Below are positions 24,630 to 56,623 of a stretch of DNA of 64,000 nt, piece by piece; the stretch's first letter is position 1; each line of letters begins with the position of its first letter. Origin of the DNA: Selenomonadaceae bacterium. GTDB taxonomy: Bacteria; Bacillota; Negativicutes; Selenomonadales; Selenomonadaceae. Both the position numbers and the translations under genes were made by a program. The notes under the pieces were generated by a model that saw nothing but the letters and a program-made list of their open reading frames with translations, made no database searches and was not told the origin of the DNA. The stretch spans positions 1-64,000 of the forward strand of contig JAFXTD010000020.1 in the NCBI GenBank assembly GCA_017535925.1. The letters are read 5' to 3'.

Positions 24630-24662
24630 ACGCAAGTTAAAAATTTTTGGGAGATGATATTT

Positions 24663-25298
24663 TTGAAGGTCGAAGAAACTTTTTTCCGCGATATGTATCA
24701 TCAGATTTGCTTGTTGACGGACGCGGACTTGGCTCAAAAATTTTACGACATGCTCGAAATGGACGGCGAAAAACCCGACGGACTTTTGACGTACGGTTAC
24801 ATTGACAAAGAGGCGGGCTTCACGTTCAGCATTTTGGGCGGCGCGCAAACTTCGGGCGGGCGTCTGAAAATTTTTCCGATTAATTACAAGAAAGCGGCTT
24901 TGATTCGGCGAGGCGCGGCTGCGGAGTCCGACGTGAAAATTTTGACTGACGATTACGCGCTTGCCTTCCGCGACCGAATGGAAATGATTAACGACACTTA
25001 CGCCGTCGACGAGGCTTGCGAACGAACCCGCTACATTAAAAATCTTGATCCTTTCCGCCACCCGCATTATCCCGACGATGTTGTCGTTTACTTTTTGAGC
25101 AAAGACAGCAAGCCGGAACTTTTATGGGTGCGTTGCCTTTCGGTCGACGGAAAAATTTTGACGGGCAAACTTTTGAACGAACCCGCAAAAGATTTAGGCT
25201 GCCACGAAGGCGACGAAATAAAATTCGGCGTCGTGCAAGTCAATGATCAAAAAGTTCTGATTTATCTCCCGCCGGCGGAGGTCGACTCTCTTGCATAA
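24663..25298 (+). CDS. Conserved-looking protein of unknown function
   Basis: 211 residues, soluble, no signal peptide, membrane segment or motif I recognise. Segments such as [19 protein letters not shown] and [15 protein letters not shown] look like a compact alpha/beta protein. The start is probably TTG at 24663, with GGGAG 9 nt upstream; the ATG at 24654 touches that RBS. The 3' end overlaps the next gene by 8 bp, so it is translationally linked to the FAD enzyme and belongs to the envelope-type operon. Confidence 0.75.
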
Positions 25299-31481: not shown

Positions 31482-31861
31482 CAAGAGAACGCATGTTGGA
31501 AATAATTCGCTTCTGCTTCGTGGGCGGCGTGTCGTTCCTTATGGACTACTCGATACTCTTCGCGCTCACGGAATTTGCGGGCGTCTACTACCTTTACTCG
31601 TCGGCGATTTCCTTCAGCATAACGGTCGTGTTCAATTATTGGCTTTGCGTCATTTACGTTTTCAAAGACGCGCAAAAGCAAACGACTCGACGCGCGATAA
31701 TTTTTTTCGGGACGGGCGTCGTCGGCTTGGGGCTCAATCAACTTTGCATGTGGTTTTTCGTCGACGTTGCCGGCTTGTATTACATGATTGCAAAAATTTT
31801 CGCGACCGCCATCGTCACGATTTGGAATTACTTGACCAAACGCAAAGCCGTCACGGGTTAG
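31478..31861 (+). CDS. GtrA family membrane protein
   Basis: 127 residues with four membrane helices; IIRFCFVGGVSFLMDYSILF and NYWLCVIYVFKD match the GtrA-like family. GtrA proteins are thought to flip or present undecaprenyl-linked sugars for glycan decoration. Translation is coupled to the deacetylase gene. The end overlaps the convergent tubulin-like gene by 11 bp. Confidence 0.88.
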   Translation: MTRERMLEIIRFCFVGGVSFLMDYSILFALTEFAGVYYLYSSAISFSITVVFNYWLCVIYVFKDAQKQTTRRAIIFFGTGVVGLGLNQLCMWFFVDVAGLYYMIAKIFATAIVTIWNYLTKRKAVTG

Positions 31862-33239
31862 CGCAAGTGTCATAGAGCCTCCGCAAAAATTTTCCGAAGC
31901 CTTTGACCGTCGAATCGAATTTGAAAGGTTCCGTCAAGCGATAAAAAATTTCGTGAATCGTCAGCTTGGATTTATTGCCGTCGAGGGCGGCGAAAAGTTT
32001 TTTGTCGACGAGCCGCGCAGGATTCGCCTCGAACATCGCGGGATTTATCAAAAAAACTTCGCGCCCGTCAAGAGTTTCAATCTGCTTGAGCCACGCCGCG
32101 AACGCCTCCGCATAAAAATTAAAATTCACAACGTCGGGGGCAATCAAGTCGACGCCGTCAAGAAAATCCACGAACCAAGGATATTTGTAAGTCTTCGCCT
32201 CGCCGGAAATCAAATCGTTGAGCGCGGGCTTAATCAAATGGACGTAAGCAAAAATAAATCGGGCGAATTGAACGAAACGTTCGCTCGAATCAGGAAAGTC
32301 GCTCCAAGAAAATTTATCGCGTTCGTGTCGGCAAATGTACTTGAAAATTTTCGGTGCGTGAAGAGGTCGCGCATAAAAATCCGCCGCCGCCAATGCCGCA
32401 TAGAGTTCGACGACGTGAGCCTCGTTGCGCTGATTCGCCGAGCCGACCGAAAATTCTTTCACGGGTGTCATGACCGAATCGCCGACAAAATACGTCGTGT
32501 CGAAAAGATTTTCTTTCTCCGAATAATATTTCAAAGCCGCCTTTGTGTTCGGCAAAAAGTTTTCGCTGTGAGCAAAAAGTTCGTCGAGCTTTTCGTCGGG
32601 CGTGAAGCTGAAGTAGGGCAGAATCAAAACGCCGCCGATTGAAATTCTGTCCGCGTAGTCGACAAGATTATTTTTCAGCAAGCGTGCAATCGTCGGAAGA
32701 CCCGCAGCACCCGTGCCTCCGAAGACCGAGCCTGCCAAAAAAATTTTCACGGAGTCGCCCTCGCTGACGATCTTTTCAATCTGCGCGGTCAACTTCGAGC
32801 CGTCGTCAAATTTTTTCGCAAGGACAGCCGCACCGATCGAGGGGTGTCCGCGAAAGCCTTCGTTGAGCGTCGTGTCACGCTCTTTTTTTGTGTAAAGAAT
32901 TTCGTAAAGCTTGCCGGCGGGCGTGTTGCTGTGATGATAAAATTCAATCAAATCGTCGAGGGTCTTGTCGTGTCCCGTAGGATTCCAAGGGAAAGGGCGC
33001 ACGATTGAAATTTTATTTTTGAACAGCGGCGTATCGTTGCCGACGGAAAAATTTTGGAAGACGGAAAAATTATTCAGCGCGGTCGAAGTACGTTCGAGGT
33101 TGCCGTTGCCGACATCGGGGTCAATCGCCGCGATATAAAGTCGTTCGTTTTCGGGCAAGAGCCCCGCGATACAAAGATGCGTCAAGCTTTCCATAACCTT
33201 CGCGCCGGTGCCGCCGATTGAAATAAAATAATAGCTCAT
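31851..33239 (-). CDS. Tubulin-like (Tubulin_2-type) GTPase-fold protein
   Basis: 462 residues. The N terminus SYYFISIGGTGAKVMESL is a Gly-rich nucleotide loop; IAAIDPDVGNG follows and AGSVFGGTGAAGLPTIARLL (169-188) carries a GGTGxxG tubulin/FtsZ signature. The order fits the bacterial tubulin-like family distinct from FtsZ. No transmembrane segment is present. The ATG at 33239 has GGAGG 5 nt upstream. It is last in an operon-like series with an LCP protein, a YrbL-like kinase, a membrane protein and a lipoprotein, facing the kinase-vWA-PP2C-Hsp70 module across cbiE. A cytoskeletal or scaffold role at the envelope is an inference. Confidence 0.72.
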   Translation of the reverse strand: MSYYFISIGGTGAKVMESLTHLCIAGLLPENERLYIAAIDPDVGNGNLERTSTALNNFSVFQNFSVGNDTPLFKNKISIVRPFPWNPTGHDKTLDDLIEFYHHSNTPAGKLYEILYTKKERDTTLNEGFRGHPSIGAAVLAKKFDDGSKLTAQIEKIVSEGDSVKIFLAGSVFGGTGAAGLPTIARLLKNNLVDYADRISIGGVLILPYFSFTPDEKLDELFAHSENFLPNTKAALKYYSEKENLFDTTYFVGDSVMTPVKEFSVGSANQRNEAHVVELYAALAAADFYARPLHAPKIFKYICRHERDKFSWSDFPDSSERFVQFARFIFAYVHLIKPALNDLISGEAKTYKYPWFVDFLDGVDLIAPDVVNFNFYAEAFAAWLKQIETLDGREVFLINPAMFEANPARLVDKKLFAALDGNKSKLTIHEIFYRLTEPFKFDSTVKGFGKFLRRLYDTCANP

Positions 33240-33253
33240 AACCGCCTCCAAAA

Positions 33254-33923: not shown

Positions 33924-34424
33924 TTAATCGACTTTGCCGGTTCTTTTTAAAATCAGTCGTGCGCCCGGCGGCGTGTACTTGAAGGCGAGCGGCGTCGTGA
34001 AAATTGTAAGCAGCCAATAGCCCAAGCCCGTGAAGATTATTGCGAACAGAGCGAAAATTATTCCGTTGAGTTTTATTCCGATAATCGGTGCGTAAAAATG
34101 CGCGACGCCCAAACTTATCGCCAAAGACGTTGCCATTAATGCCGCCCAAAAAATTCTCTTGCCCGCGCCCGAAGCCTCGTCGACCGTGAAAAAAAATCTT
34201 GACGTGAGGAACCAGCCCAGTGCACAAAGTCCGTTCAGCAAACCCGCCGCCCGTGTCAAAGCAAAATATTTTTCCAACCACCGCGAATAGTTCATGTTGT
34301 CGGAGGCGGTCGCCAATTTGTGACCCGTCACGTTCGCGCCCAAATAATATGCTGCCGCGATACAAATCACCGTTGCCGCCGCGATTAAAAATATTTTCAC
34401 AACCGTCCGCGTCGTTCGATTCAT
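33924..34424 (-). CDS. Membrane protein of unknown function
   Basis: 166 residues with about four hydrophobic helices: residues 8-28, a second near 58-78, then two near 90-140. No motif recognised. The ATG overlaps the YrbL-like gene stop (ATGA), so the two are coupled. Basic C-terminal tail suggests cytosolic ends. Confidence 0.7.
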   Translation of the reverse strand: MNRTTRTVVKIFLIAAATVICIAAAYYLGANVTGHKLATASDNMNYSRWLEKYFALTRAAGLLNGLCALGWFLTSRFFFTVDEASGAGKRIFWAALMATSLAISLGVAHFYAPIIGIKLNGIIFALFAIIFTGLGYWLLTIFTTPLAFKYTPPGARLILKRTGKVD

Positions 34425-35029
34425 AAACTTTCAAGCCTCCGCAAAAATTCTTCCGAGAAAATTTTTCCGTAATCCGAACGCATCAATTCGCAGAAGCGCA
34501 ACCAATATTTTTTTGCACGCTTGAGAGCAAAGTAGTCGAAGTAATACGGCAGAGGAACGAAAGTTGCAATGCCGATGTTGTCAATGATTCGGACGCGGCG
34601 TTCGGTCGGCGAAGTTCTTTGCACAAGATAGTTATCGGGGTCGACGCCCGCCAATAAAAATTTTTCGTCGAAGTAAGTTTGCTTGAAGTCGAGGAGAAGT
34701 TTTTCGGTCGAGGGCAAAAGATTTTTATCGGCAATTGTATCGTCGAGGACGTTGAGCATCGTTTGACAAACTTTGCCGTCGTAATCGAGGACGCGTTCAA
34801 AGAGATAACCCTTGCCTTTGGAAGTCTCAACCTCGCCGAAAAATTTCGTGAGGAGCGTCATTTTATCTGCGCGGTTGCCCAAAGCTTTTCGATAGCGGGA
34901 CTCTTTGGCGAAGTCGGGGTCGTCGGGCGTGTGAAGAATTTTCACGCAAAGATTTTTGTCGGTCGGGTGAGCGTAAACGGTTTTGTGATTGCCCACGCCC
35001 AAATACAAATCGTCAGTCAGAATAATCAT
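34421..35029 (-). CDS. YrbL-family protein-kinase-like protein
   Basis: 202 residues. LGVGNHKTVYAHPTDKNLCVKIL has a Gly-rich loop and the presumed ATP-binding Lys, as in the PhoP-regulated YrbL family. VDPDNYLV replaces the usual catalytic-loop motif and RIIDNIG takes the place of DFG, so a small atypical kinase fold is likely. Substrate unknown. The ATG at 35029 has GAGG 8 nt upstream and lies 2 bp after the LCP gene stop. Confidence 0.78.
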   Translation of the reverse strand: MIILTDDLYLGVGNHKTVYAHPTDKNLCVKILHTPDDPDFAKESRYRKALGNRADKMTLLTKFFGEVETSKGKGYLFERVLDYDGKVCQTMLNVLDDTIADKNLLPSTEKLLLDFKQTYFDEKFLLAGVDPDNYLVQRTSPTERRVRIIDNIGIATFVPLPYYFDYFALKRAKKYWLRFCELMRSDYGKIFSEEFLRRLESL

Positions 35030-35031
35030 GC

Positions 35032-36441
35032 TCAATACCTCGTTTTCGGTGCTTCATTTCTCGTCGGCTCATTGAATGGTTCGTTGACTTCGGGGACGGG
35101 TTGCCGTTCGATTATCGGTTCGTCAATCGCGGGTCTGTCGTTTGAAGTGGTTCGGTCGTTGTCATAGGTGCGTCTGTCGTTTGAAGTCGTGCGGTCGTTT
35201 TCGTAAGTCTGTCTGTCGTTTAAAGTTGTTCGGTCGTTTTCGTAAGTCTGTCTGTCTCTTGAAGTGGTTCGTTCGTTTTCATAAGTGCGCCTGTCGTTTG
35301 AAGTGGTTCGGTCGTTTTCGTAAGTCTGTCTGTCTCTTGAAGTCGGTCTGTCGTTTTCAAAAGTGCGGCGGGTTGTCCGCTCCTCCAAACTGCGTCGGCT
35401 TTCACGAACGGGCTTGCCTATGCTGACATCGTCGTCGGGCACGTCTTTGGCTCCGGAAGGAATCGATTCGTTGTATTCGCGAGCGGCTCTTTCAAAACGT
35501 TCTCTCAAATACGGGTCGACGGAAATTCCCAACGCGTCGGCGACGGAAATTCTCATCAGCTCCACGTCGGGTATCCAATAGCTTATATCGTCAATGTAAA
35601 GCGGGTAGCCCGGCACCATGTCGGTTTCAAGTCCGTTTTGTTGAGCGGCTTTGAGTGCGCCCGCCAATTCGAGGAGCTGCCTCAATGACATATCGGTTTC
35701 GACGGCGTCGATAATTTCGCGAACGATTTTCGGAATGCGCGGGACAATTTCGGGCGAAGTGACTTTATCCATGCAAGCCTCCATGAAAGCCTGTTGACGT
35801 TTGACGCGCCCGATATCTCCTTCCGAATCACGATAGCGCACGTAAGTCACGGCGGTCTTGCCGTCCATGTGCTGTTGACCGGGATAGAGGTCGATAACCA
35901 GTCCGCCGTTGTCGTCCCAAGGGTCTTCGTAAAACATGCGCTTTTCAACATCGATATCCACGCCGCCGATTGCGTCAATGATTTTTACGAAGCTGTTCGT
36001 GTCAATCAAAACGTAGTGGTCAATGTCAATGCCGAGAAAATTTTCGACGGTGGATTTGGAGAGGTCGACACCGCCGTAAGCGTAAGCCGCGTTGATTTTG
36101 TCGTAACCGAGCCCGCGAATTTTAACACGAGTATCACGCGGCACGGATAGGAGCGTTGCTTGGTCGAGGCGCGGGTCAATCGTTGCAATCATCATCGTAT
36201 CCGAACGCCCGACATCATCCTCGCGCTTGTCTACGCCCATGATTAAAACTATCGATTTGTCTTTGGCTTTTATGAGTTCTTCCTCTTTGTTGTTGACGAT
36301 TCGCCGCACGGGATTTTCATCGTCAAGCAGACTCGACGAAGCAAACATCGCGCCCGCCAATGCCGAAGCCGCAAAGCACAACACAAGGAAGATTATCGGC
36401 AAAATATTTCGTTTTGGTTTTTTCCGGTCGTTATTGTCCAA
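35032..36441 (-). CDS. LytR-CpsA-Psr (LCP) family protein with a 13-residue repeat tail
   Basis: 469 residues. One membrane anchor (about 13-35) precedes the LCP domain: IVLIMGVDKRED, GRSDTMMIATIDP, LLSVPRDTRVKI, GYDKINAAYAYGG and VTYVRYRDSEGDIGRVKRQQ, with the conserved Arg and Asp residues that bind lipid pyrophosphate. LCP enzymes attach glycopolymers to peptidoglycan or protein outside the membrane. The tail is hydrophilic and holds six 13-residue repeats (358-435) of RQTYENDRTTSND type, then a Pro/Glu-rich end. TTG start at 36441, 7 nt after GAGGG. It is the first gene of a five-gene series with its own extended -10 promoter. Confidence 0.9.
   Translation of the reverse strand: MDNNDRKKPKRNILPIIFLVLCFAASALAGAMFASSSLLDDENPVRRIVNNKEEELIKAKDKSIVLIMGVDKREDDVGRSDTMMIATIDPRLDQATLLSVPRDTRVKIRGLGYDKINAAYAYGGVDLSKSTVENFLGIDIDHYVLIDTNSFVKIIDAIGGVDIDVEKRMFYEDPWDDNGGLVIDLYPGQQHMDGKTAVTYVRYRDSEGDIGRVKRQQAFMEACMDKVTSPEIVPRIPKIVREIIDAVETDMSLRQLLELAGALKAAQQNGLETDMVPGYPLYIDDISYWIPDVELMRISVADALGISVDPYLRERFERAAREYNESIPSGAKDVPDDDVSIGKPVRESRRSLEERTTRRTFENDRPTSRDRQTYENDRTTSNDRRTYENERTTSRDRQTYENDRTTLNDRQTYENDRTTSNDRRTYDNDRTTSNDRPAIDEPIIERQPVPEVNEPFNEPTRNEAPKTRY
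35137..35370 (-). repeat. Six 39-bp coding repeats in the LCP gene
   Basis: Six units of 39 bp, each encoding R-x-T-[YF]-[ED]-N-x-R-x-T-x-x-D. Units differ at a few positions. Copy number could vary by recombination or slippage without shifting frame. Confidence 0.9.
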
Positions 36442-36543: not shown

Positions 36544-37167
36544 TCATTGAACGATTAATATGCAGTGCTTGACGGGTTCGGCTTGAGCGGCGGCGGCGAG
36601 GGTCGTCGTGAAAATTTTTTCGTCGGGGTAGGAAAGCTTTTCGCAAATCGTGACGGAAGAATTTTTTTCCCAACCGCACTCAAGCAAAATCTTCGAGACG
36701 GTCGAGGAATTGAATTCGGCATCCGTCAACAGTCCCAAAATTTTTCCCGCAGAATATTTCAAAGCCGCCCGCGCAGGTTGCCTCCCGTGAAAGCTCAAGA
36801 GTGTTGCGTCGTGCCAAGGCAAAGAAATTTTTGCAAAGGCGAGCTGCATTGCGCTGATTGAAGGAACAACTTCGATTGATTCGGGCGGAAAATTTTTTCG
36901 GAGCAGGTCAAGCATTGAGTAATAGCCGGGGTCTCCGCTGACCATGACAACGACATCGGCGATTAAAATTTTTTCGCGGATAAAATTCAGCGGCGCGTCG
37001 AGGTCGCGGGTTATCGCACAAGTTATCTGATTCGTCGAGGCAAATTGATTGAGCGCACGCCTCCCTCCGACCAAAAATTCAGCCGAACGAATTTTTTTCA
37101 GCGCGGCGGGCGAAATAAAATCTTCACTGCCCGGCCCGATTCCCGCAACGATAATTTTTTTTTCCAA
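36544..37167 (-). CDS. cbiE: CbiE-type cobalt-precorrin-7 C5-methyltransferase
   Basis: 207 residues. IIVAGIGPGSEDFISPAAL binds S-adenosylmethionine as in the tetrapyrrole methylase family; LVGGRRALNQF, VMVSGDPGYYSML and SISAMQLAFAKISLPWHDA follow. It acts late in corrin ring methylation. The decarboxylating CbiT/CobL part is absent here. TTG at 37167 has GAGG 8 nt upstream; an upstream TTG at 37194 would add 9 residues that include the RBS sequence. It stands alone between two divergent gene sets. Confidence 0.87.
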   Translation of the reverse strand: MEKKIIVAGIGPGSEDFISPAALKKIRSAEFLVGGRRALNQFASTNQITCAITRDLDAPLNFIREKILIADVVVMVSGDPGYYSMLDLLRKNFPPESIEVVPSISAMQLAFAKISLPWHDATLLSFHGRQPARAALKYSAGKILGLLTDAEFNSSTVSKILLECGWEKNSSVTICEKLSYPDEKIFTTTLAAAAQAEPVKHCILIVQ

Positions 37168-37221
37168 ACGATTCACCTCGCCCGAAATTTTCAACGAGCC
37201 GAAAATTTTTCCTGCCTTCGA

Positions 37222-37277: not shown

Positions 37278-38597
37278 ATGGCAGAGTTTGTGCCCTTGAC
37301 AAAAAATCAGCGAATCGATTTGGCTGACGGACGAACGATTATCGTAACGGATAAATTGGGCGACGGCGGACAGGGAATTGTTTATCGCGTTCGATACGAC
37401 GACACGGGCGAGGAGCGTGCGTTGAAATGGTTTTTTATCGGCTACATAGAAGAGCCTCGAAAATTTTACAATCGCCTTGAATCGAACATAAAGAGCGGTG
37501 CGCCGTCGGAGGCATTCGTTTGGCCGGAACAACTTACAAAATACGTCGACGATGAACCTTTCGGCTACGTCATGAAAATTTTCCCGAAGGGCTACGAAAG
37601 TTTTTCAAAATATTTGTTGGCGCGAGTGAATTTCAAAAATGCCGCCGCAATGGTCGACGCCGCTTTGAATATAGTTTCCGCGTTCAAGTCTCTGCACCTC
37701 AAAGGCTACAATTATCAAGACCTCAACGACGGAAATTTTTCAATCAATCCTCTCAACGGCAAGGTTTTAATCTGCGACAATGACAACGTCGTCGGGCACG
37801 GTTGTCATTCGGGCATCATGGGCAAGGCTCGTTACATGGCTCCCGAAGTCGTGCGCGGCGAAAAGCAACCCGACGTTGATACCGACAGATATTCTTTGGC
37901 GGTCGTGTTGTTCATGTTGCTTATCGGCGACCACCCGCTCGAAGGCAAGCGGACAAATTATCCCGTCTTGACAAACAAATATGACAAGAGGATTTTCGGG
38001 ACGGAGCCTTTGTTCATCTTCGACGAAAAAGATTCTTCAAACGCGCCGCATCCTCTGATTCATCGAAATGCTTTGAACATGTGGAATATTTTTCCGAGCT
38101 TCGTGAAAAAAGCTTTTCAACAGTCGTTCGGTCAAGAAAGTTTGCTTCAAGGAAAAAATCGCCTTCTGGAAAATGAATGGTTCAATATTTTGGTGCGCTT
38201 GAAGAGTTCGATTGTCCGTTGTCCTCATTGCGGCGAGGAAATGTTTTTGGAAAGTGACAAGGCTTCGCTCTGTCAAGCTTGCAAAAAATCTGTTAAGGCA
38301 GCGGGTTACCTCAACTTCTCAAAGCGCGCCAATCGCGAAGTGACCGTTCCGATTTTCAAAGGAGCCGTGCTTTACGATTATCATATGAATTCTTCTTCGG
38401 AGGATTTCGATACGGAGGCCGCCGTCATTTTGGAAAAGCCCGGCAAATTCGGTTTGAAGAACAATTCAAATTACAAGTGGCTTGTCACGGCACCCGACGG
38501 CAGAACTTTTGCGCGACAGCCCGGCGATACTCAATTGCTTGTTGCAAATTGTAAAATCGATTTCGAAAAAAATACCGCGACCGTCGTCGTCAACTGA
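37278..38597 (+). CDS. Ser/Thr protein kinase with C-terminal zinc ribbon
   Basis: 439 residues. Kinase domain about 20-300: Gly-rich loop LGDGGQGIVYRV, ATP Lys50 in RALKWF, catalytic loop YQDLNDGN (Asp148, Asn153), metal site ICDND (Asp167 in place of DFG) and MAPEV. A C4 zinc ribbon follows (Cys315, 318, 332, 335), then a beta-rich domain of about 90 residues ending the protein, possibly OB-fold or FHA-like. No membrane segment, so it is cytosolic. GGAGG/GAGG precede the ATG. It is the first gene of the module; the vWA gene follows 15 bp downstream. Confidence 0.87.
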   Translation: MAEFVPLTKNQRIDLADGRTIIVTDKLGDGGQGIVYRVRYDDTGEERALKWFFIGYIEEPRKFYNRLESNIKSGAPSEAFVWPEQLTKYVDDEPFGYVMKIFPKGYESFSKYLLARVNFKNAAAMVDAALNIVSAFKSLHLKGYNYQDLNDGNFSINPLNGKVLICDNDNVVGHGCHSGIMGKARYMAPEVVRGEKQPDVDTDRYSLAVVLFMLLIGDHPLEGKRTNYPVLTNKYDKRIFGTEPLFIFDEKDSSNAPHPLIHRNALNMWNIFPSFVKKAFQQSFGQESLLQGKNRLLENEWFNILVRLKSSIVRCPHCGEEMFLESDKASLCQACKKSVKAAGYLNFSKRANREVTVPIFKGAVLYDYHMNSSSEDFDTEAAVILEKPGKFGLKNNSNYKWLVTAPDGRTFARQPGDTQLLVANCKIDFEKNTATVVVN

Positions 38598-38612
38598 AGG
38601 AGGAAAAATTTT

Positions 38613-39356
38613 ATGGGAATGTTGGACAAGGTTGAAATTGCTCGCAAGATGTGCTCCGTGATTTTTTTGCTCGACACTTCGGGCAGCATGTCCGGTGCGC
38701 CAATCGGGGCGGTCAATGACGCGATAAAAAATGTTTTGCCGGAATTGATTTCCATGAACGATTCCAATCCCGACAACGAAATTAAAATCGCCATCATGAC
38801 TTTCGATTACGAGGCAAAATGGGTGCTCGGCGAAACGGAACTGCTTGCCCCCGAAGACGTTCAAAGTTATTGGAAAGACTTGGACGCGAACGGATACACT
38901 TCCATGGGCGCGGCGTTCAGAGCCTTGAACGAAAAACTTTCCGTCTCTCACGGCTTCATGAAACGTGCTTCGGGTTCGGTTGCGCCGGTATTATTTTTGC
39001 TTTCGGACGGCGAGCCCACAGACGATTACAAATCGGGTTTGCAGGAGCTTCAAAAGAACGGCTGGTATAAAATCGCAGTGAGAGTGGCGGTCGGCTACGG
39101 CGATTTCAACGAACAGATTTTACGCGAGTTCACCGGCAACGAGGGCACCGTTTTGAGCACGAGCGACCCGAATTCTCTGCGCGATACAATCAGATTCGTT
39201 GCGGTTACCTCGTCAAGAGTGGCAAGTCAAGGCGGCAACGTCTCGACCGACGCTGACATTGCCAATCCCGACGACAACACTCAAAAAGTAGCCGATGTCC
39301 TTCAAAATCAAGGCGGCTTGCTCAATGCCACATTGGATGCCGGCGACAATTTCTGA
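38613..39356 (+). CDS. vWA-domain protein (TerY-like) with complete MIDAS
   Basis: 247 residues. A vWA fold with DTSGSMSG (Asp21, Ser23, Ser25), Thr96 in GYTSMG and Asp132 in LSDGEPTDD gives an intact metal-ion-dependent adhesion site. No signal peptide or membrane helix, so it acts in the cytosol. TerY-type vWA proteins occur with PP2C phosphatases and kinases in tellurite/stress-linked loci. Low-complexity C-terminal ~40 residues, rich in Asn, Asp and Gln. GGAGG precedes the ATG. A strong terminator hairpin lies between this gene and the PP2C gene. Confidence 0.88.
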   Translation: MGMLDKVEIARKMCSVIFLLDTSGSMSGAPIGAVNDAIKNVLPELISMNDSNPDNEIKIAIMTFDYEAKWVLGETELLAPEDVQSYWKDLDANGYTSMGAAFRALNEKLSVSHGFMKRASGSVAPVLFLLSDGEPTDDYKSGLQELQKNGWYKIAVRVAVGYGDFNEQILREFTGNEGTVLSTSDPNSLRDTIRFVAVTSSRVASQGGNVSTDADIANPDDNTQKVADVLQNQGGLLNATLDAGDNF

Positions 39357-39389
39357 TTGAAAAATTTTTCGACGCTTGAATAAAAATTA

Positions 39390-39422
39390 ATCCCTTGAAA
39401 AAATTTTTTCAGGGGATTTTTC
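39390..39422 (+). terminator. Strong hairpin terminator or attenuator inside the module
   Basis: ATCCCTTGAAAAAA (39390-39403) pairs over 14 bp (one G-T) with TTTTTTCAGGGGAT (39404-39417), then T5. It should reduce read-through from kinase-vWA into PP2C-GrpE-Hsp70. Confidence 0.75.
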
Positions 39423-39453
39423 TAGGCGCGAAATAAAAGGAGCGTGAGCTTAA

Positions 39454-40650
39454 ATGAAATTCAAAATGTTCGCCGCGACGGTTCACGGGAAAAAATATTT
39501 CGAACGCAATTTGCCTTGCCAAGACAGCTCCGACGTTTTGAAATTCGACGGCGTGCAGATTGTTGCCGTTGCCGACGGACATGGCGGCAAAGATTATTTC
39601 CGCAGCGATACGGGCGCGAAACTTGCCGTGTCGATTGCCTTTGAGCAGATAAAAATTTTTTGCAATGAACTTTCAGCCGAAGAACGTTTCTCCGAAAGCG
39701 GCATAAAAAATTTTGAGTTGAGACTTTGGGATAAGTGGCGCGAGGCGGTCAAAAAAGATTGGGACGAGCAGCTTGCGAATATGACTGCGGAACCGCGTTG
39801 GCAAAGTGTCAGCGACAAATACAAGGCGCGATTCACTTCCGACGAAAAATATATTCCCGTTGCTTACGGTACAACTTTAATTTGCGCGGTGTCGATAGGT
39901 TCGCAGGTTTTGATTTTTCAAATCGGTGACGGCAGTTGCGTTGTCTTGCAGAGAAACGGCGAATTTAAAATCCCCGTGCCGCCCGACGCCGAAAACTTCG
40001 CCAACGTGACCTCCTCGCTCTGTGACGAAGACGCTTACAAAAAATTTCGTCACGTCGTCTTGGATTGCGCGGAGGATTCGCCGCTTGCGCCCGTTGCAAT
40101 TTTTTTGAGCACCGACGGGCTTGACGATTGCTGGCCGATTTTTGAAAACGAAAAGCACTTGTACAAATTTTACGGCGAAGTGATTCTCGACAACATTATA
40201 AGCAACAGCTTTGCTTCGACGGAAAAAGAAGTGCGCGAGGAGCTTTTGCCCTACATGACGGAGCACGGCAGCAACGACGATATTTCTTTGGCTTATCTCG
40301 TGACGAAGGATTTGAATTTACTCGGACGAACTCTCGGCAAAGAAATTTCCGACCCAATCAAAATGAAAGAACCGCTTTCCGTCATGAAAAGCAACCTCGA
40401 AAAGCTGAAGCTGAATCACGAAAAAATGAAAAAAGTTGTGGAAGACACGCAACCGCAAGTTAAGCAACAAGCCGAACAAGCCCGCGAAAAACTTTTGCCC
40501 GCTTGGTGGGAAGAAAGGAGAATCAAACATGATGGACAGTCTTGGAATTTACAACGAGGCTCTCTTATTCGCGAAGAACAATCCGCCGGGAGCCTATTTA
40601 AATCTTCGGAGAAATTATTACCTTCAACTGGTGACGACGACTTTTTATGA
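39454..40650 (+). CDS. PP2C-family Ser/Thr phosphatase
   Basis: 398 residues. The metal site DGHGG (Asp41), YGTTL, QIGDGSC, STDGLDD (Asp221) and GSNDDIS (Asp275-276) are all present, so it should be catalytically active. A helical, charged segment (about 300-350) follows the domain. The last ~40 residues (from about 359) are encoded in the 122 bp that overlap the start of the next gene in another frame, and look like an out-of-frame extension caused by loss of an earlier stop. It would reverse phosphorylation by the module kinase. Confidence 0.88.
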   Translation: MKFKMFAATVHGKKYFERNLPCQDSSDVLKFDGVQIVAVADGHGGKDYFRSDTGAKLAVSIAFEQIKIFCNELSAEERFSESGIKNFELRLWDKWREAVKKDWDEQLANMTAEPRWQSVSDKYKARFTSDEKYIPVAYGTTLICAVSIGSQVLIFQIGDGSCVVLQRNGEFKIPVPPDAENFANVTSSLCDEDAYKKFRHVVLDCAEDSPLAPVAIFLSTDGLDDCWPIFENEKHLYKFYGEVILDNIISNSFASTEKEVREELLPYMTEHGSNDDISLAYLVTKDLNLLGRTLGKEISDPIKMKEPLSVMKSNLEKLKLNHEKMKKVVEDTQPQVKQQAEQAREKLLPAWWEERRIKHDGQSWNLQRGSLIREEQSAGSLFKSSEKLLPSTGDDDFL

Positions 40651-41602
40651 GCTGACCGTAAAAAAAACTTCGCCGCTTATTTCTGCTATATGTCGAGTGT
40701 ATCGCATAGAGTTGCCGCTCAAAAATTTTTCAATGACGCCCGTGCAAGCGACTTTCAATTTGCATACGAGCTTTGATTTGCTTGTTATCGTTTACGGATT
40801 GAATCTTGCCTTTTTGAAAAATCTCGGCTCTTGTTCGGAAGTGTTTGACGCCAATGCCGAAAGTATTTTTAACGGAGTTCCTTTGCCGGAAAAAAATTTT
40901 CGTGATTTGTTGGAAAACTTGACGAAGCTGGATGAGAATTTCGGAAAAATTTTCGCCGTGAGAATCGAACGCGTTGAGGTTCCCGTCGAAAAAATTATTG
41001 AGGTTGAAAAGCGCGTAGAGGTGCCCGTCGAAAAATTTTCCGACGAACAGGACAAAGATTTGATTCAAAGCTTGAAAGCCCTCGCCGATAATCGACACGC
41101 CGAAAACGAAAAGATTATTGGCGAAATAAACAAAGTGCAGCGTGACCTTCAAGAGGAATTGCCTCGCCTGCAAAACACGCTGAAAACAATCGCGGACATT
41201 CGTGACGGGCTGGAGTTTAATACATTGGAGGAGCCGATAAATCAGCTGCTTCAACTTTTCGACATGATTAATGAAACGGCGCAAAGACATCCTCAAGAAG
41301 ACAGGCAAAAAGGTTACGACAATCTTATCAGGCGTTGCAGAAGATTTTCGGATTACGTGGAGCAGTCGCTGGAAATGCTCGGCGCGAAGATTATCAAAGA
41401 AACAAATATTTTGTTCGACCCTTCCAAGCATACGGCAACGAACACCGCCCGCCCGTCAAACGCCGCGAAGGTTTCCAAAATTTTGAGCGTCGGTTTAATC
41501 TTCAAAGATTTGGTTCTTCGCAAGGCTGAAGTCGAGGTTATCGAGCCCGCTGTAATTTCGCAAGAAAATTATTTGGCGATACGGAAAAGTTTTGGGAGGT
41601 AA
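40529..41602 (+). CDS. GrpE-like nucleotide-exchange protein with N-terminal domain and coiled coil
   Basis: 357 residues. The last ~100 residues match the GrpE pattern: LEMLGAKIIKE, LFDPSKH (296-301) and VGLIFKDLVLRKAEVEV (321-337), the beta-wing side that opens the Hsp70 nucleotide cleft. A coiled coil (about 140-240) includes the doubled segment VEVPVEK. The first ~135 residues form a separate helical domain I do not recognise. Ordinary GrpE is ~190 residues and lacks that part. AAAGGAG lies 8 nt before the ATG at 40529. The dedicated Hsp70 gene follows 6 bp downstream, supporting partnership. The 5' end overlaps the PP2C gene by 122 bp. Confidence 0.78.
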   Translation: MMDSLGIYNEALLFAKNNPPGAYLNLRRNYYLQLVTTTFYELTVKKTSPLISAICRVYRIELPLKNFSMTPVQATFNLHTSFDLLVIVYGLNLAFLKNLGSCSEVFDANAESIFNGVPLPEKNFRDLLENLTKLDENFGKIFAVRIERVEVPVEKIIEVEKRVEVPVEKFSDEQDKDLIQSLKALADNRHAENEKIIGEINKVQRDLQEELPRLQNTLKTIADIRDGLEFNTLEEPINQLLQLFDMINETAQRHPQEDRQKGYDNLIRRCRRFSDYVEQSLEMLGAKIIKETNILFDPSKHTATNTARPSNAAKVSKILSVGLIFKDLVLRKAEVEVIEPAVISQENYLAIRKSFGR

Positions 41603-41608
41603 ATTTTC

Positions 41609-43072
41609 ATGAAGATAGGAATTGATTTCGGCACGAGCTTTTCTTTGCCCGCCGCATTGATAAACAACACGCCTTCCACTCTTTTGTCAAGCGGTCAATA
41701 CGGTTTGCCTTCGGTCTTTTATTTCGACAGAGGGCTTGGCGTTTTGATTGGCAACCCCGCCGAAGACCAAGGCAGCCGCCATCCCGAAAACGTCGTCCGC
41801 AACGTGAAAATGGAAATCAGCAATCCCGACAAAAAAGAGTTTAAGCTTGACGGTAAAACTTTCAGCAAGAAACAAATCGTCGGGCACATCTTCCGCGAAA
41901 TAAAACGTGTTGCGCTTGAGGGCATTGAGTATAAGCAACTTGTTTCTCAAAAGATTGACGGCGCGGTCGTTTCCGTTCCGGCAGCCTTCACTCTTCGCGA
42001 ACTGAATCTTATTCGAGACGCCGCGCAGGAAGAGGCAGGCTTAAATGTTTTGGGTTTCATTCGCGAGCCGGTAGCTGCTGCCATTTCCTACTTCAACGCG
42101 CCCGGTTCCTCTGACGAAAAGACGATTTTGGTTTACGACTTGGGCGGCGGCACTTGCGACGTTGCGATTGTTCGTTCCGATAAAAATTCCAAAGAGTGGT
42201 ACAAGGTCATTGATTCGGATATGAAACGAATCGGCGGCAGGGATTGGGATAAACTTCTCGGCGAATTGATTAAGCGCAAGTGTCGTGAGCAGGAACCTTA
42301 CATCAAATTCAATGCGCGGGCAGAAAATAAAATTTTAAAAGCGGCGATTAACGCCAAGCATAATCTTTCGAAGCTGGACAGATACAGTTCATACATTGAA
42401 ATCGGCGGCGACGATTACGACTTTGAAATAACGCGGGCGGAATTTGAAAAGATAACCTCCGAGCTTTTGCAAGAGACGATGAAAATTGTCGAGAACCTCA
42501 AAAGCAAATGCGCGACCAAAATTGATTATATCGTTTGCGTGGGCGGCAGTTCCAATATGCCTCAAGTTCGCAAAGCCTTCGAGAAAAATTATCCCGACAT
42601 TGAAATAAAAGTTTACGAGCCGGAAAAAGCAATCGCATTAGGCGCGGCGATTTATGCCGAGCATTTGAAAGAGGAATATTTCCTTCGCGACATCTGCAAA
42701 TTTTCTTACGGCGCACGGTACGTTCAAAATTTCGCCAAGTACAAAGATTGGAATCGCCTCAGAATTTACAACATCATTTACAAAGGCGACGCCCTGCCTG
42801 TGAGCGGCGAATCGACTTCCTACAAAATTGAAGACGGACAAAGTTCAACTTACATTGCGATTTACGAATCTGAATGCAAGGACAAAATTTATTTGCCGGA
42901 AGAAGGCACGCATATCGGCGAAATTGAAATTCGCGGGCTTCGCGACAGCAAAGAGGACGACGAAACTCTTTTGACAATGACGATTGACAGGAGCGGGCTC
43001 ATGCAACTTAAAGCGGTCGACAAGCGCACGGGAAAATCGGCGAACGTTGAGATTCAGCTCAAAGATTATTAA
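41609..43072 (+). CDS. Hsp70-family (DnaK-like) ATPase lacking the lid
   Basis: 487 residues. Actin-fold ATPase: phosphate-1 GIDFGTSFS, REPVAAAISYF, phosphate-2 VYDLGGGTCDVAIV (175-188) and VCVGGSSNMPQV. A short beta-rich substrate-binding-like region follows (about 385-487), but the helical lid of DnaK (~120 residues) is absent. It is a specialised paralog rather than the housekeeping DnaK. GGAGG stands upstream of the ATG. With the GrpE-like protein it forms a private chaperone pair for the kinase/phosphatase/vWA set. Confidence 0.9.
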   Translation: MKIGIDFGTSFSLPAALINNTPSTLLSSGQYGLPSVFYFDRGLGVLIGNPAEDQGSRHPENVVRNVKMEISNPDKKEFKLDGKTFSKKQIVGHIFREIKRVALEGIEYKQLVSQKIDGAVVSVPAAFTLRELNLIRDAAQEEAGLNVLGFIREPVAAAISYFNAPGSSDEKTILVYDLGGGTCDVAIVRSDKNSKEWYKVIDSDMKRIGGRDWDKLLGELIKRKCREQEPYIKFNARAENKILKAAINAKHNLSKLDRYSSYIEIGGDDYDFEITRAEFEKITSELLQETMKIVENLKSKCATKIDYIVCVGGSSNMPQVRKAFEKNYPDIEIKVYEPEKAIALGAAIYAEHLKEEYFLRDICKFSYGARYVQNFAKYKDWNRLRIYNIIYKGDALPVSGESTSYKIEDGQSSTYIAIYESECKDKIYLPEEGTHIGEIEIRGLRDSKEDDETLLTMTIDRSGLMQLKAVDKRTGKSANVEIQLKDY

Positions 43073-43135: not shown

Positions 43136-43606
43136 ATGGCTTTGCTTGAAATAAAAAAGGCGGGCGACCCCGTCTTAAAAAAAATTTGCACGCCCGTCGA
43201 TAAGATTAACAAACGCTTGAGGAAACTTTTGGACGACATGGCTGAAACAATGTACGCGAGTGAAGGTGTCGGGATTGCCGCGCCGCAAGTCGGTGAGTCG
43301 ATTCGGGTTTGTGTCGTCGACGTTGACAAGAAAAATCGCTACGACTTGATTAATCCCGTCATAACTTTTCGCGAGGGCTCCGTCGTCGACAATGAAGGTT
43401 GCCTCTCTTGCCCCGACCTCTTCGGGGACGTTGAGCGCGCCGAGAAAATTCGCGTCGAATACATCGGTCGCTTCGGCAAGAAAAAAACTTTGGAGGCGGA
43501 AGGCTTGCTTGCCCGTTGCATTCAACATGAGCTCGACCACCTCGACGGAAAACTTTTTATCGACATTGCCAAAAACATTACCAAAGGCAGAAAGCAAAAA
43601 GAGTGA
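43136..43606 (+). CDS. def: Peptide deformylase
   Basis: 156 residues. Motif 1 GVGIAAPQVG, motif 2 EGCLSCPD (Cys89) and motif 3 QHELDHLDG (His131, Glu132, His135) supply the metal ligands and catalytic Glu. It removes the formyl group from nascent proteins. GGAGG precedes the ATG. No fmt or priA is nearby, so it is outside the common def-fmt pair. Confidence 0.96.
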   Translation: MALLEIKKAGDPVLKKICTPVDKINKRLRKLLDDMAETMYASEGVGIAAPQVGESIRVCVVDVDKKNRYDLINPVITFREGSVVDNEGCLSCPDLFGDVERAEKIRVEYIGRFGKKKTLEAEGLLARCIQHELDHLDGKLFIDIAKNITKGRKQKE

Positions 43607-50376: not shown

Positions 50377-51426
50377 TTATCGGCGCGAATTTTTCTCGAA
50401 AATTTTTTTCAATTCCTCAAAGGATAAAATCTCCAAGTGCGCCAATTTATTTCGGATTTCCCGATAAAATTCCAAGTCGTCGGCGTCGTTTTCGGCGATT
50501 AACCAACGCCGCTGATTGAACTGCCCGTAAAGCTGACCGATTTCCACTTCTTCGGGCGCGGAGTAGAAAGGCGGCGTATTTTTTATTTGCTGTTCGTATT
50601 GTCGGATAAAATTTCGGCGGAAAGTTTCGACGAGTGGGAAAATCAATTTGAGCTGCGTCATCCAAATTGCCTGTTCAATATCGTCGGTGCTTTTGCCGGA
50701 AGTAAATTTTCCTTCCCACAAAATATCGTTAAAAAATTCTTCGGGGTCTTTAAGGAAGTCCTCACTGCGAGCGATACACGCCGCGCCGAACTCAACATCG
50801 CCTTCGGTGAGCGCACTGACCAATTCGGCAAGATATTGTTTCATCAAATGATTTTCGTTGGCAAAGTCCGCCGCCGCAAAAATATTGAAGGCAAAGCTGT
50901 CATATGCGCTGATTTTTTCGGCGTAGGAAAGAATTTCCACACCGGATTTTCCAAAGTGATAATCGCCGGCTTCCAAGAGAAAAACTCCGCCGCGTTTACC
51001 GTCAAGAAATTTTTGATAATCGGCAATGAACGAAAACCATTTATCAATCTGCGCGGGCGAGGCGTTGCGAATCCAAATGCAGGTGCTGTTTAAGGAAATG
51101 CCTTTGCGTTTTGCAAGAAACTCCGCGTAAGCTCCTTTGTTGAACGGGCGGAAGCCGTCCTTGTCGTCACAAAATTCTTTGAGGACGTATTCTTGAGGTT
51201 CGGAAGAAATTTTTTCCGCGTCAACAACTTTGATACTCTGCGTGCCTCTTCGCAACAACTTTTCCAAAACGTCGCGCATAGATTTTTCAAAAGGTACGCG
51301 ATTCGGCAAGCAAAGGACGACACTTTTGCCGCCCGATAATTTTTCGACCGCCTCGCTCAAAAATCTGCGCGGACCGTTTAAATCTTCCCACCAAATTTTT
51401 TCAAACAACTCGTCGCGATTATTCAT
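50377..51426 (-). CDS. Protein of unknown function paired with the giant P-loop protein
   Basis: 349 residues, soluble. SGGKSVVLCLPNRVPFEKSM near the N terminus resembles a degenerate nucleotide-binding beginning, and the C-terminal IRNKLAHLEILSFEELKKIF resembles Swt1/HEPN-like helices, but I would not assign a family. The ATG overlaps the giant gene stop by 8 bp, with GGAGG 6 nt upstream, so the two proteins are made together. Probable partner of the giant protein. Confidence 0.75.
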   Translation of the reverse strand: MNNRDELFEKIWWEDLNGPRRFLSEAVEKLSGGKSVVLCLPNRVPFEKSMRDVLEKLLRRGTQSIKVVDAEKISSEPQEYVLKEFCDDKDGFRPFNKGAYAEFLAKRKGISLNSTCIWIRNASPAQIDKWFSFIADYQKFLDGKRGGVFLLEAGDYHFGKSGVEILSYAEKISAYDSFAFNIFAAADFANENHLMKQYLAELVSALTEGDVEFGAACIARSEDFLKDPEEFFNDILWEGKFTSGKSTDDIEQAIWMTQLKLIFPLVETFRRNFIRQYEQQIKNTPPFYSAPEEVEIGQLYGQFNQRRWLIAENDADDLEFYREIRNKLAHLEILSFEELKKIFEKNSRR

Positions 51427-54400
51427 GTTCAGCCTCCGCCATCAGCTTTAGCAAAGTTTCTTCGACTTCGTTTAGCGTGCCGACTATCCGCAAAATTCTT
51501 TGCCGCGAAAAAAGATATTCCGCCTTGCCCGTCTTGCGCAAGATGTTCAGCTCGCAAAGTTCCTCCATGAGCGCGCCGACTTTTTCCTCTGCGTTCGGAA
51601 GCAACGGTTCCTTAATCAATCCGAATTCGGCGGCGGCTGATAAAATTTCTCGCGGCGAATAACCTTCCAAACGATTTTGCTTGTAATAAAGATGCGCCAA
51701 CAAATTCGCGATAACGAAATAATATTTGTCCTCGCCGAGCCGCAACGTGATTTCGATTTTGGTTTTTATGTCCTTCGTGAATTCGCGGTCGGCAAGAACT
51801 TTTTTTATGTGCTCCTCGCTGATTCGATAAATCGGCGTATCGGCGTCGTAGCCCGCATAGCCCGCCTCGAACAAAGCCTTGACAAGTTTTTCGCAGTAAA
51901 GCTGAATCAAACTCGGAAAGTAATTCGCCGTCTCCAAAATCGTAAGAATCAAAGAATCCTTTTCGCTTTCCGGAAAGTACAAGCCCAAATATCTTAGCGG
52001 CACTTCCAAAAGTTGACGGGCGTCCTCGACGTTGAAAGGTTTTATCGTCAAAGATTTCAACGTGGGAAGAATGCTGTTGTTGCTGAAAGTTTTTTCGCGC
52101 TCGAAGCGAATGATATTCCTCAAGCCCGCGATAACAAATTTGAATCGGCTGCCGTCATAATCCTCCTGCTGAATCTTGGCAAGCGCGACAATCGGGGCGT
52201 AATTATTTTCCGCGCAAGAGTCGATAAATTTATCCGCCTCGTCAAGCATGAGGAGGAAGTAGGGAATTTTCGTCGGCGCGTCACTCGACAGACGATTTCT
52301 TATGGCGCGGGTAAGTTCCTCCCAATCGTCGGTCTCGAAAGGTTCGGCGAAGAAATTTTTATCGCTAAGCTCGTGACTTGTAAGCAAAGCCGCTTCCCGA
52401 TAATTTTTATCGTCAATGTCAATGAAAATCGCCCGCTCGTTGTTGTTGCCGTCAACTTTTCGACACGCCATTTTGAGCAGAGCCGACTTGCCCAGCTGAC
52501 GACCGCCGCAGACGATATTCACTCCGCCGTGATTCATGACCTCGTTGATTTCGTTTTCGCGACCGATGAACATTTCGGGCGGCAGAGGAATTCGCGGCGA
52601 CCAAATGTAAGGTTGATAGCGGGCGAACGGCATTATCAGCGACATCAAAGTATCGGTGACTCTCTTCGTGCCGAGCTGCGCCGCGCAATTTTTCAACAGG
52701 AACATTATCGTTACTCTGTCGACGACCGCAAAAACTTTTGTCAAGCTCTTGTCAAGCTTAATCTCTTTTGCGAGGCGACGACGCGTCGGCAAGTCAAGCG
52801 CGTAATCCAAAAATATCAGCGTGTGTTTGGAATTGCCGAGCTCCTTGAATTTTTCGATAAGATTTTTCTCGTCGAACTTGCCGAAGAGACACGAGACATT
52901 GAAGCCGGCAATTTCCGCATCCGAGCCGAACGCCGCTATCGGGTGACCGGATTTTTGTCCCGCGCCGAAAATCTTCACGTGGAAATTAATCGTGTTTGAA
53001 GCGGGCAAAGAAATTTTTTGAACGTCCTCGACGCTGAAGCCGAGCAACTCAAGCAAAGTTTTAATTCGGTCTTCGTTGACGGAATTTGTAATCCAACTTT
53101 TGATGAGATTGAGTTTGGCGCGAGAAATTTTATCGCGAGGCAAAATTTTCTTGCCGATTAAATTTTCCAACGAATCGCCGCTGTCTTTGACGCGATTATA
53201 ACAATCGACGTACTCTTCCGCGTCCAAAAATCTGTTAAGCGGCGTGTCTTCCGTGTCGTCGAATTTTTTGTAAAGTTCGCCGCGACTCAACTTGAAAATC
53301 AAACTTTGAGCCGCCGTAAAATTTCGCGCCGCGATTATTTTTTCAATCTCTGCAATGCTGTCGTTAAGTTCCGCCTCGTTGAAGTTGTCCGAAATTTTTT
53401 TGTAAGTTTCAATCGCCGACTGCAAATCTTTCTTGAGAACTTCGCCGCGCTTAACGGCGTTGTCTTCAATCACGTCTTCCCAATATTTTTTCACGCGGAA
53501 AAACACGCCGAAATTTTTTGTCTCCGAAGCATACTTGTAGCAGTTTTCGACGAGCTGAAGAATTTTTTCCTTTTCGCCTTCGGGCAACGTGTCAAATTGT
53601 CCGTAGCTCTGCGCAAGCTCAAGACCGCCGATAAAATTTTCGCGATAACGCGGGGCGTCTTTGGCGGCACTGGTTATGCACTTCGCCACGTCGTATTCTT
53701 TCTGCTCAATGAACGACGCGCCTTTGAAATTTTTGAGGTAATCGTCAAGCAGTTTCGCGGAACCGAAATCGTCGCCGCCCGCCTCGAAAATCTGTTCGAT
53801 ACGTGCCTCTACCGTCGGCAACTTCAAAGCCGCGTGCTTTTTTATTTGTTCGGTTATGCCTTCATGCGTTCCGTCGGAAATGTTCAAGTCGAATTTCGGA
53901 AAATAATTTTCGTCGAGGACAATCTTATCGCCGCACAAAAATTCCGCGTAAAAATATTTATGTTCAAGCCTGCTGTAGGAGCCGTCAAGCCGCGCAGAAA
54001 TTTCTTTGAGCGTCCGAATCAAGACGATTGAGCCCGCATCTTTCGATAAATTTTTTTGAGCCGCTTGAACGTTGTCGATAAGTTGCGAACGAATTTTTTT
54101 GTATTCGACAATGCCGCTGTCCTCGCCGCCCGCGCAGAGAATTTGAGCACAATTAACCCAAGCGCACATAATTTCTACGGCGCGCTCCATGTTTTTTGTT
54201 ATGTTGTTGCGAAGACGACTTACAAGCTTGCCGGGATTTTTCTTGCCGCAAGCCTCGTCCCATTTGTCGTCGATAAATTGAGCGAGCTTTTCGTCGTCGA
54301 TATTCACCCTGTCGAAGCTTGCATCCTTTTCGATAAAAGTTTCCGTCAAAAAATCTTTAATGAAGTTGAGCGTGTCAACCGAATGAGCCTCCGCCTTATC

Positions 54401-56593: not shown

Positions 56594-56623
56594 GAGTTCA
56601 ATCTCCAAATTCCAAATTGATTT

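Follow-up and report, generated by a model that had tools for sequence, protein, structure and literature searches.

A kinase–vWA–PP2C triad linked to a GrpE-like factor and a lidless Hsp70 in Selenomonadaceae

TerY-P consists, in the available part of PMC11090510, of adjacent genes for a TerY-like vWA protein, a PP2C phosphatase and a Ser/Thr kinase with a C-terminal zinc ribbon. GAP1-N2 neighbourhoods show three non-overlapping themes, according to the accessible text of PMC7159879, among them HSP70 with GrpE (theme 2) and an active kinase (bearing a zinc ribbon and a beta-rich domain) with PP2C and a standalone vWA protein (theme 3). A third related arrangement is the yegD, yegI, yegJ, pphC and yegL cluster of Escherichia coli K-12, for which the accessible sections of PMC13232886 report that YegI autophosphorylates and that PphC dephosphorylates YegI. 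Here, we analyzed a window of 64,000 nucleotides (positions 1 to 64,000 of contig JAFXTD010000020.1, assembly GCA_017535925.1) from a rumen bacterium of the Selenomonadaceae, which carries at 37278–43072 five co-oriented genes on the + strand encoding a kinase, a vWA protein, a PP2C phosphatase, a GrpE-like factor and an Hsp70, in that order. We report that these five genes form one genetic unit. No description of this unit was found in the literature, although the search covered parts of open-licence texts only and is therefore weak as evidence of absence.

Compared with TerY-P, the window likewise has adjacent vWA, PP2C and kinase genes, the kinase being fused C-terminally to a ribbon recognized by its Cys spacing, and the three proteins appear to fit the published triad. 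The locus differs in that the triad is joined to GrpE and Hsp70 genes, the kinase has an extra beta domain, and the usual, if not universal, linkage to Ter or restriction genes was not seen, as no such gene was detected with Pfam among the 27 window proteins scanned. The gene sets of GAP1-N2 themes 2 and 3 are both present; they are merged in the window, whereas the available text of PMC7159879 calls these themes non-overlapping. Membership in a GAP1-N2 system was considered and rejected: the 11 genomes searched, not all of them complete, yielded no GAP1-N2, and Corynebacterium glutamicum was positive among 14 controls.

The E. coli Yeg locus also combines an HSP70-family protein, a kinase, a PP2C phosphatase and a vWA protein in one cluster, and hidden Markov models (HMMs) of the module, searched against a set of five proteins, matched YegD (1.8e-12), YegI (3.6e-9), PphC (2.7e-10) and YegL (6.7e-15). 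Unlike the window, however, the Yeg locus has no annotated GrpE gene and its genes lie on mixed strands; YegD aligned with the module Hsp70 over the ATPase domain only, at 22% identity. Identities between module and Yeg proteins were 22–30% over part of their lengths, and the YegD branch was too long to place. The GrpE-like protein and the Hsp70 of the window resemble the housekeeping DnaK–GrpE pair in having a GrpE fold and signature and an Hsp70 nucleotide-binding domain (NBD) and beta substrate-binding domain (SBD-beta), but the Hsp70 lacks a lid, the unit has no J-protein, and the GrpE-like protein has an extra N-terminal domain. The parts are thus already described, whereas their combination, which keeps its gene order in two bacterial groups far apart from each other, was not found in the literature searched.

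To define the distribution of the unit, we examined 38 kinase loci, 20 of which were Quinella-type, that is, from Selenomonadaceae or Selenomonadales metagenome-assembled genomes (MAGs), two of them titled Quinella; we infer the genus name for the window. The five genes were in order in all 13 Quinella-type loci with at least 3.2 kb of downstream sequence, while the other seven ended sooner; these 13 loci represent 12 genomes, as L042 and L045 share a MAG; L045 ends inside the Hsp70 gene, and L054, the G288 locus, carries a broken kinase frame. Among 66 genomes of the genus, the kinase C-region had a strong match (E < 1e-100) in 20 and a weak match in three more, and the GrpE N-terminal domain was found in 20. 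Both were present in 18 genomes, the strong kinase match only in two (G289 and G695), the GrpE domain only in two (G167 and G718) and neither in 44 (Fisher p = 4.9e-12, with no correction for relatedness); G289 does have a GrpE-like gene, with its N-terminal part cut at a contig end. Of the 18 genomes with both, 15 had the two genes on a single contig, roughly 3 kb or less apart, and three (G692, G712 and G721) had them on different contigs.

An empty site supported the same view. We examined 30 loci around the left-flank gene, from 66 genomes with a match, and found a module gene as its neighbour in 11, a deformylase-like gene in six and neither in the fetched DNA in 13. The protein matches of the two flank genes (presumably cbiE and def) lay 79–154 bp apart in six genomes (G258, G271, G291, G688, G696 and G704), all of them lacking kinase and GrpE matches, and in the alignment the insertion ended on its right side near the stop codon of the Hsp70 gene. 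The unit was located between the same flank genes in the opposite orientation in G281; both flanks differed in G259 and G288, and only the right flank in G298.

The ratio of nonsynonymous to synonymous substitution rates (dN/dS) was 0.09–0.28 across the five genes against two relatives, the values for the farther one being rough because dS exceeded 1. The five genes are accordingly under purifying selection, and these ratios together with the conserved gene order put the pattern far beyond chance. In six relatives (L023, L024, L028, L035, L038 and L067), the PP2C open reading frame ended 8 or 17 bp inside the GrpE gene, an overlap compatible with coupled translation. The long overlap in the window (40529–40650; Table 1) is therefore not common to these relatives, and the window PP2C gene seems to lack the usual stop codon. 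The likeliest start of the GrpE-like gene is ATG 40529, which follows GAAAGGAG, rather than TTG 40436. A scan for a promoter of the cassette's own gave no excess over shuffled sequence. Together, these results support well the conclusion that the five genes are one genetic unit.

Table 1. Genes of the five-gene unit and its immediate flanks in the window
Feature	Coordinates	Strand	Description
Ser/Thr kinase	37278..38597	+	439 aa; kinase domain followed by CPxC...CxxC ribbon (~312-338) and all-beta domain at the C-terminus (343-438)
vWA protein, putatively TerY/YegL-like	38613..39356	+	247 aa; intact MIDAS; VWA 8.7e-14
PP2C phosphatase	39454..40650	+	398 aa; metal residues kept; PP2C_2 1.2e-32; last 122 bp inside GrpE-like gene
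GrpE-like exchange factor (predicted)	40529..41602	+	357 aa counted from ATG 40529; N-terminal helical domain (4-142), then linker, helix of 82 residues, further helical part and beta wing
Hsp70 without lid	41609..43072	+	487 aa; NBD + SBD-beta; HSP70 4.7e-60; aligns to DnaK 5-502
Left flank, cobalamin-type methyltransferase gene, outside module	36544..37194	-	left edge of empty site
Right flank, peptide deformylase-like gene, outside module	43136..43606	+	right edge of empty site

The sequence-only reading had described five co-oriented genes for an active-looking kinase with a zinc ribbon, a vWA protein with an intact metal ion-dependent adhesion site (MIDAS), a PP2C phosphatase with all metal residues, a GrpE-like factor with an extra N-terminal domain and an Hsp70 without a lid, and most of this held. 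All five proteins scored above the curated Pfam cut-offs (Pkinase, 2.4e-15; GrpE, 2e-11; the others in Table 1). In the kinase, the P-loop glycines G28/G30/G33, K50, D148 and D167 were invariant and N153 nearly so in a 27-sequence alignment, as were the vWA MIDAS residues D21, S23, S25, T96 and D132 in seven sequences and PP2C D41/G42, D221 and D276 in six. We take these residues to be the catalytic or metal positions of their families, and all three proteins would accordingly appear active or intact. The zinc ribbon is assigned by Cys spacing: C315 and C318 were invariant and C332 nearly invariant among the 27 kinases, but the fourth Cys was not kept in all and no Pfam ribbon model reached its cut-off. 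The fold matches listed for the kinase were kinases or kinase-like entries. An FHA identity for its C-terminal beta domain, suggested by the strand count, found no support in sequence searches of Pfam (27 members) and the PDB. The PADLOC TerY model did not match the module vWA protein, the HMM of which matched YegL as given above. Several modules have two tandem vWA genes (L023:10259-11887, L042, L044, L056 and L066).

Separately, we observed that proteins encoded near the kinase triad begin with a common domain, about 100 aa long and weakly conserved, for which no Pfam name was found (L057:7075-8361, L057:11718-12797, L034:220-1440, L064:8221-9408, L053:13195-14220, L066:13649-14728, L051 and L056). 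In several of them this domain is fused to FGE-sulfatase, DUF6273, DUF4097 or SH3 parts, and it is possibly an adaptor domain of the triad.

The GrpE-like protein combined a GrpE profile match above the cut-off with a GrpE fold, and we infer that it is the exchange factor for the module Hsp70. Profile searches with its N-terminal domain found no convincing match and no relative. The Hsp70 ends at the position of DnaK residue 502 and therefore comprises an NBD and an SBD-beta without the lid, as had been proposed. Residues D6, K67, E153, D177 and T182 are common to it and the bacterium's own DnaK, with which it shares 27% identity. It was 60% identical to the Hsp70 of an Enterococcus module and 25–29% identical to E. 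coli DnaK, HscA, its own DnaK and another own Hsp70, values that place it in a separate subfamily. This assignment relies on the identities because the tree, although it grouped 14 module-type Hsp70s together, gave moderate support (83/84) and long branches.

A locus from another genus, in Enterococcus sp. 669A, keeps this gene order with one extra gene (a DUF6273 fusion) before GrpE. This strain was the sole carrier of the GrpE N-terminal domain profile among 105 genomes of the Enterococcus family, which suggests horizontal transfer. The same profile was found in 0 of 348 genomes of another phylum-level group, a search that had no positive control, and the kinase C-region was found in three of 398 genomes of the phylum. 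A search for plasmid carriage gave no DNA match, and tblastn matches to the Hsp70 were all below 60% identity, the 20 listed being at about 30% or less. Two Ruminococcus kinase loci had no vWA or PP2C match in 10 kb downstream.

On this basis, our preferred reading, in which our confidence is evenly balanced, is that a TerY-P-type triad is joined to a dedicated lidless Hsp70–GrpE pair, the triad setting a phosphorylation state and the pair remodelling or gating a component. The linkage evidence, the GrpE fold, the close correlation of GrpE and Hsp70 distances given below and the E. coli precedent of YegI and PphC with yegD beside them speak for it. The kinase would use its ribbon and C-terminal beta domain to sense stress and would phosphorylate itself and a partner, PP2C would reset the phosphorylation state, and the vWA protein, through its MIDAS, might scaffold the two enzymes. 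The GrpE-like protein might be tethered by its extra N-terminal domain to the triad or to the triad's target, and this private GrpE would cycle the lidless Hsp70, which could load, release or remodel a component of the phosphorylation switch. Hsp70 without a lid should bind clients loosely. A bolder form of this reading, which we consider doubtful, is that the Hsp70 nucleotide cycle, set by GrpE docked through its relative-less domain, constitutes the gate or the output of the kinase–phosphatase switch, and that the cassette moves between genomes whole.

Several observations weigh against the preferred reading. The kinase frame is broken in G288 (L026/L054) and the Hsp70 frame in G289 (L029), so that either the cassette is dispensable or these assemblies are erroneous. 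G167 has the GrpE–Hsp70 pair but no triad, and so does one contig of G721. Conversely, Selenomonas ruminantium ATCC 12561 has the triad with no GrpE or Hsp70 match within 8.5 kb downstream, and in Kiritimatiellaeota, Treponema and Clostridiales, all nine loci with 3.7 kb or more of downstream sequence had the kinase and vWA genes, mostly with PP2C, and no GrpE–Hsp70 pair. Protein distances, compared with no species control, correlated closely within each half (GrpE–Hsp70, r 0.88–0.93; kinase–vWA, 0.84–0.87) but less between the halves when Enterococcus was left out (kinase–Hsp70, 0.61; vWA–Hsp70, 0.39); the halves may therefore reshuffle. No J-domain was detected with Pfam among the window proteins scanned. 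Moreover, all physical contacts in this model are proposed, as are the signal, the client and the direction in which control runs. Since each half occurs alone, the cassette is best described as two half-modules that are usually welded together in one genus. The proposal of a distinct signalling–chaperone system, made from the sequence alone, thus survives in part: linkage in other genomes (the ordered loci, the empty sites and the 18 of 66 genomes with both markers) and the separate Hsp70 subfamily agree with it, but the system is not categorically distinct because its halves are known GAP1-N2 themes, the E. coli Yeg locus is a precedent and the halves can separate.

A rival that we regard as tentative is an anti-phage or conflict module, in which the triad would be a TerY-P-like defence switch and the Hsp70–GrpE pair would assemble an effector or hold it until infection. 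TerY-P triads are found alongside restriction systems, and related modules act against phage on their own (PMC11090510, available part), and both halves correspond to themes of conflict systems in the accessible text of PMC7159879. The patchy presence of the strong kinase match (20 of 66 genus genomes) also fits a defence role, as do matches of the kinase to the PD-T4-6 and mad6 models and a weak match of the Hsp70 (1e-4) to the candidate PDC-M61B. However, the PADLOC kinase matches lay mainly over the generic kinase domain and the vWA and PP2C proteins had no PADLOC match; the cassette has no effector gene, the flanks of the empty site resemble housekeeping genes, and the 11 genomes searched gave no GAP1-N2.

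Less probable, and proposed by analogy with BiP and Ire1, is a chaperone sensor in which free Hsp70 would bind and silence the kinase until unfolded proteins titrate it away and the kinase fires. The joint inheritance of kinase, phosphatase and chaperone and the retained SBD-beta are in its favour, as is the finding, in the accessible sections of PMC13232886, that YegJ overproduction raises expression of yegD, which lies in the kinase gene's cluster. However, direct contact is a proposal here too, and other lineages have the triad without this Hsp70. Finally, two independent accessory units that merely share a transcript with no joint function would explain the halves found alone (G167; S. ruminantium; Treponema) and the weaker correlation between them, but we judge this improbable given the same order in Selenomonadaceae and an Enterococcus, the presence of both markers in 18 of the 22 genus genomes with either, the short PP2C–GrpE overlaps in six relatives and the joint lack of all five genes at the empty site.

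Triads of the TerY-P type and the Yeg cluster of E. coli occur widely or lend themselves well to genetics, yet the parts of the literature available gave no established signal or output, either for the triad or for the YegI–PphC–YegL–YegD cluster. A natural triad with a complete private Hsp70–exchange factor pair suggests that a chaperone cycle belongs to what the triad controls, and the cassette provides a compact protein set for purification and testing.

The absence of Ter genes, also noted from the sequence alone, held for the window proteins scanned but not for the genome, in which contigs C23, C26 and C67 together carry seven TerD matches. These matches are unlinked to the module: the stretches around them contained no kinase, vWA, PP2C, GrpE or Hsp70 match to the module HMMs (E 0.01). 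Enterococcus 669A and S. ruminantium carry the triad and gave no TerD match; TerD is therefore not required. The TerD genes are paralogues (L135-L137), and the C67 copies lie, by eye, near P-type ATPase-like and glycosyltransferase-like genes.

Among the other genes of the window, a Tubulin_2-like gene (31851–33251, - strand; 2.1e-8) lies about 4 kb from the module, and L044:4506-5885 holds a copy with 89% identity. A further GAP1-N2 theme involves tubulins. The gene was rejected as a module part, as it had no match in nine relative loci and a match in one of seven others (L044), and it is probably chromosomal background. A YrbL-like protein (2.9e-32) is encoded near the module at 34421–35035 (- strand). 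The gene at 24654–25298 (+ strand) showed a weak DUF2314 match (8.5e-4, below cut-off) and no blast similarity of note; E. coli YegJ, encoded in the yegD–yegL cluster, is a DUF2314 protein. At 51419–56608 (- strand), the window encodes a 1729-aa protein with weak AAA matches only.

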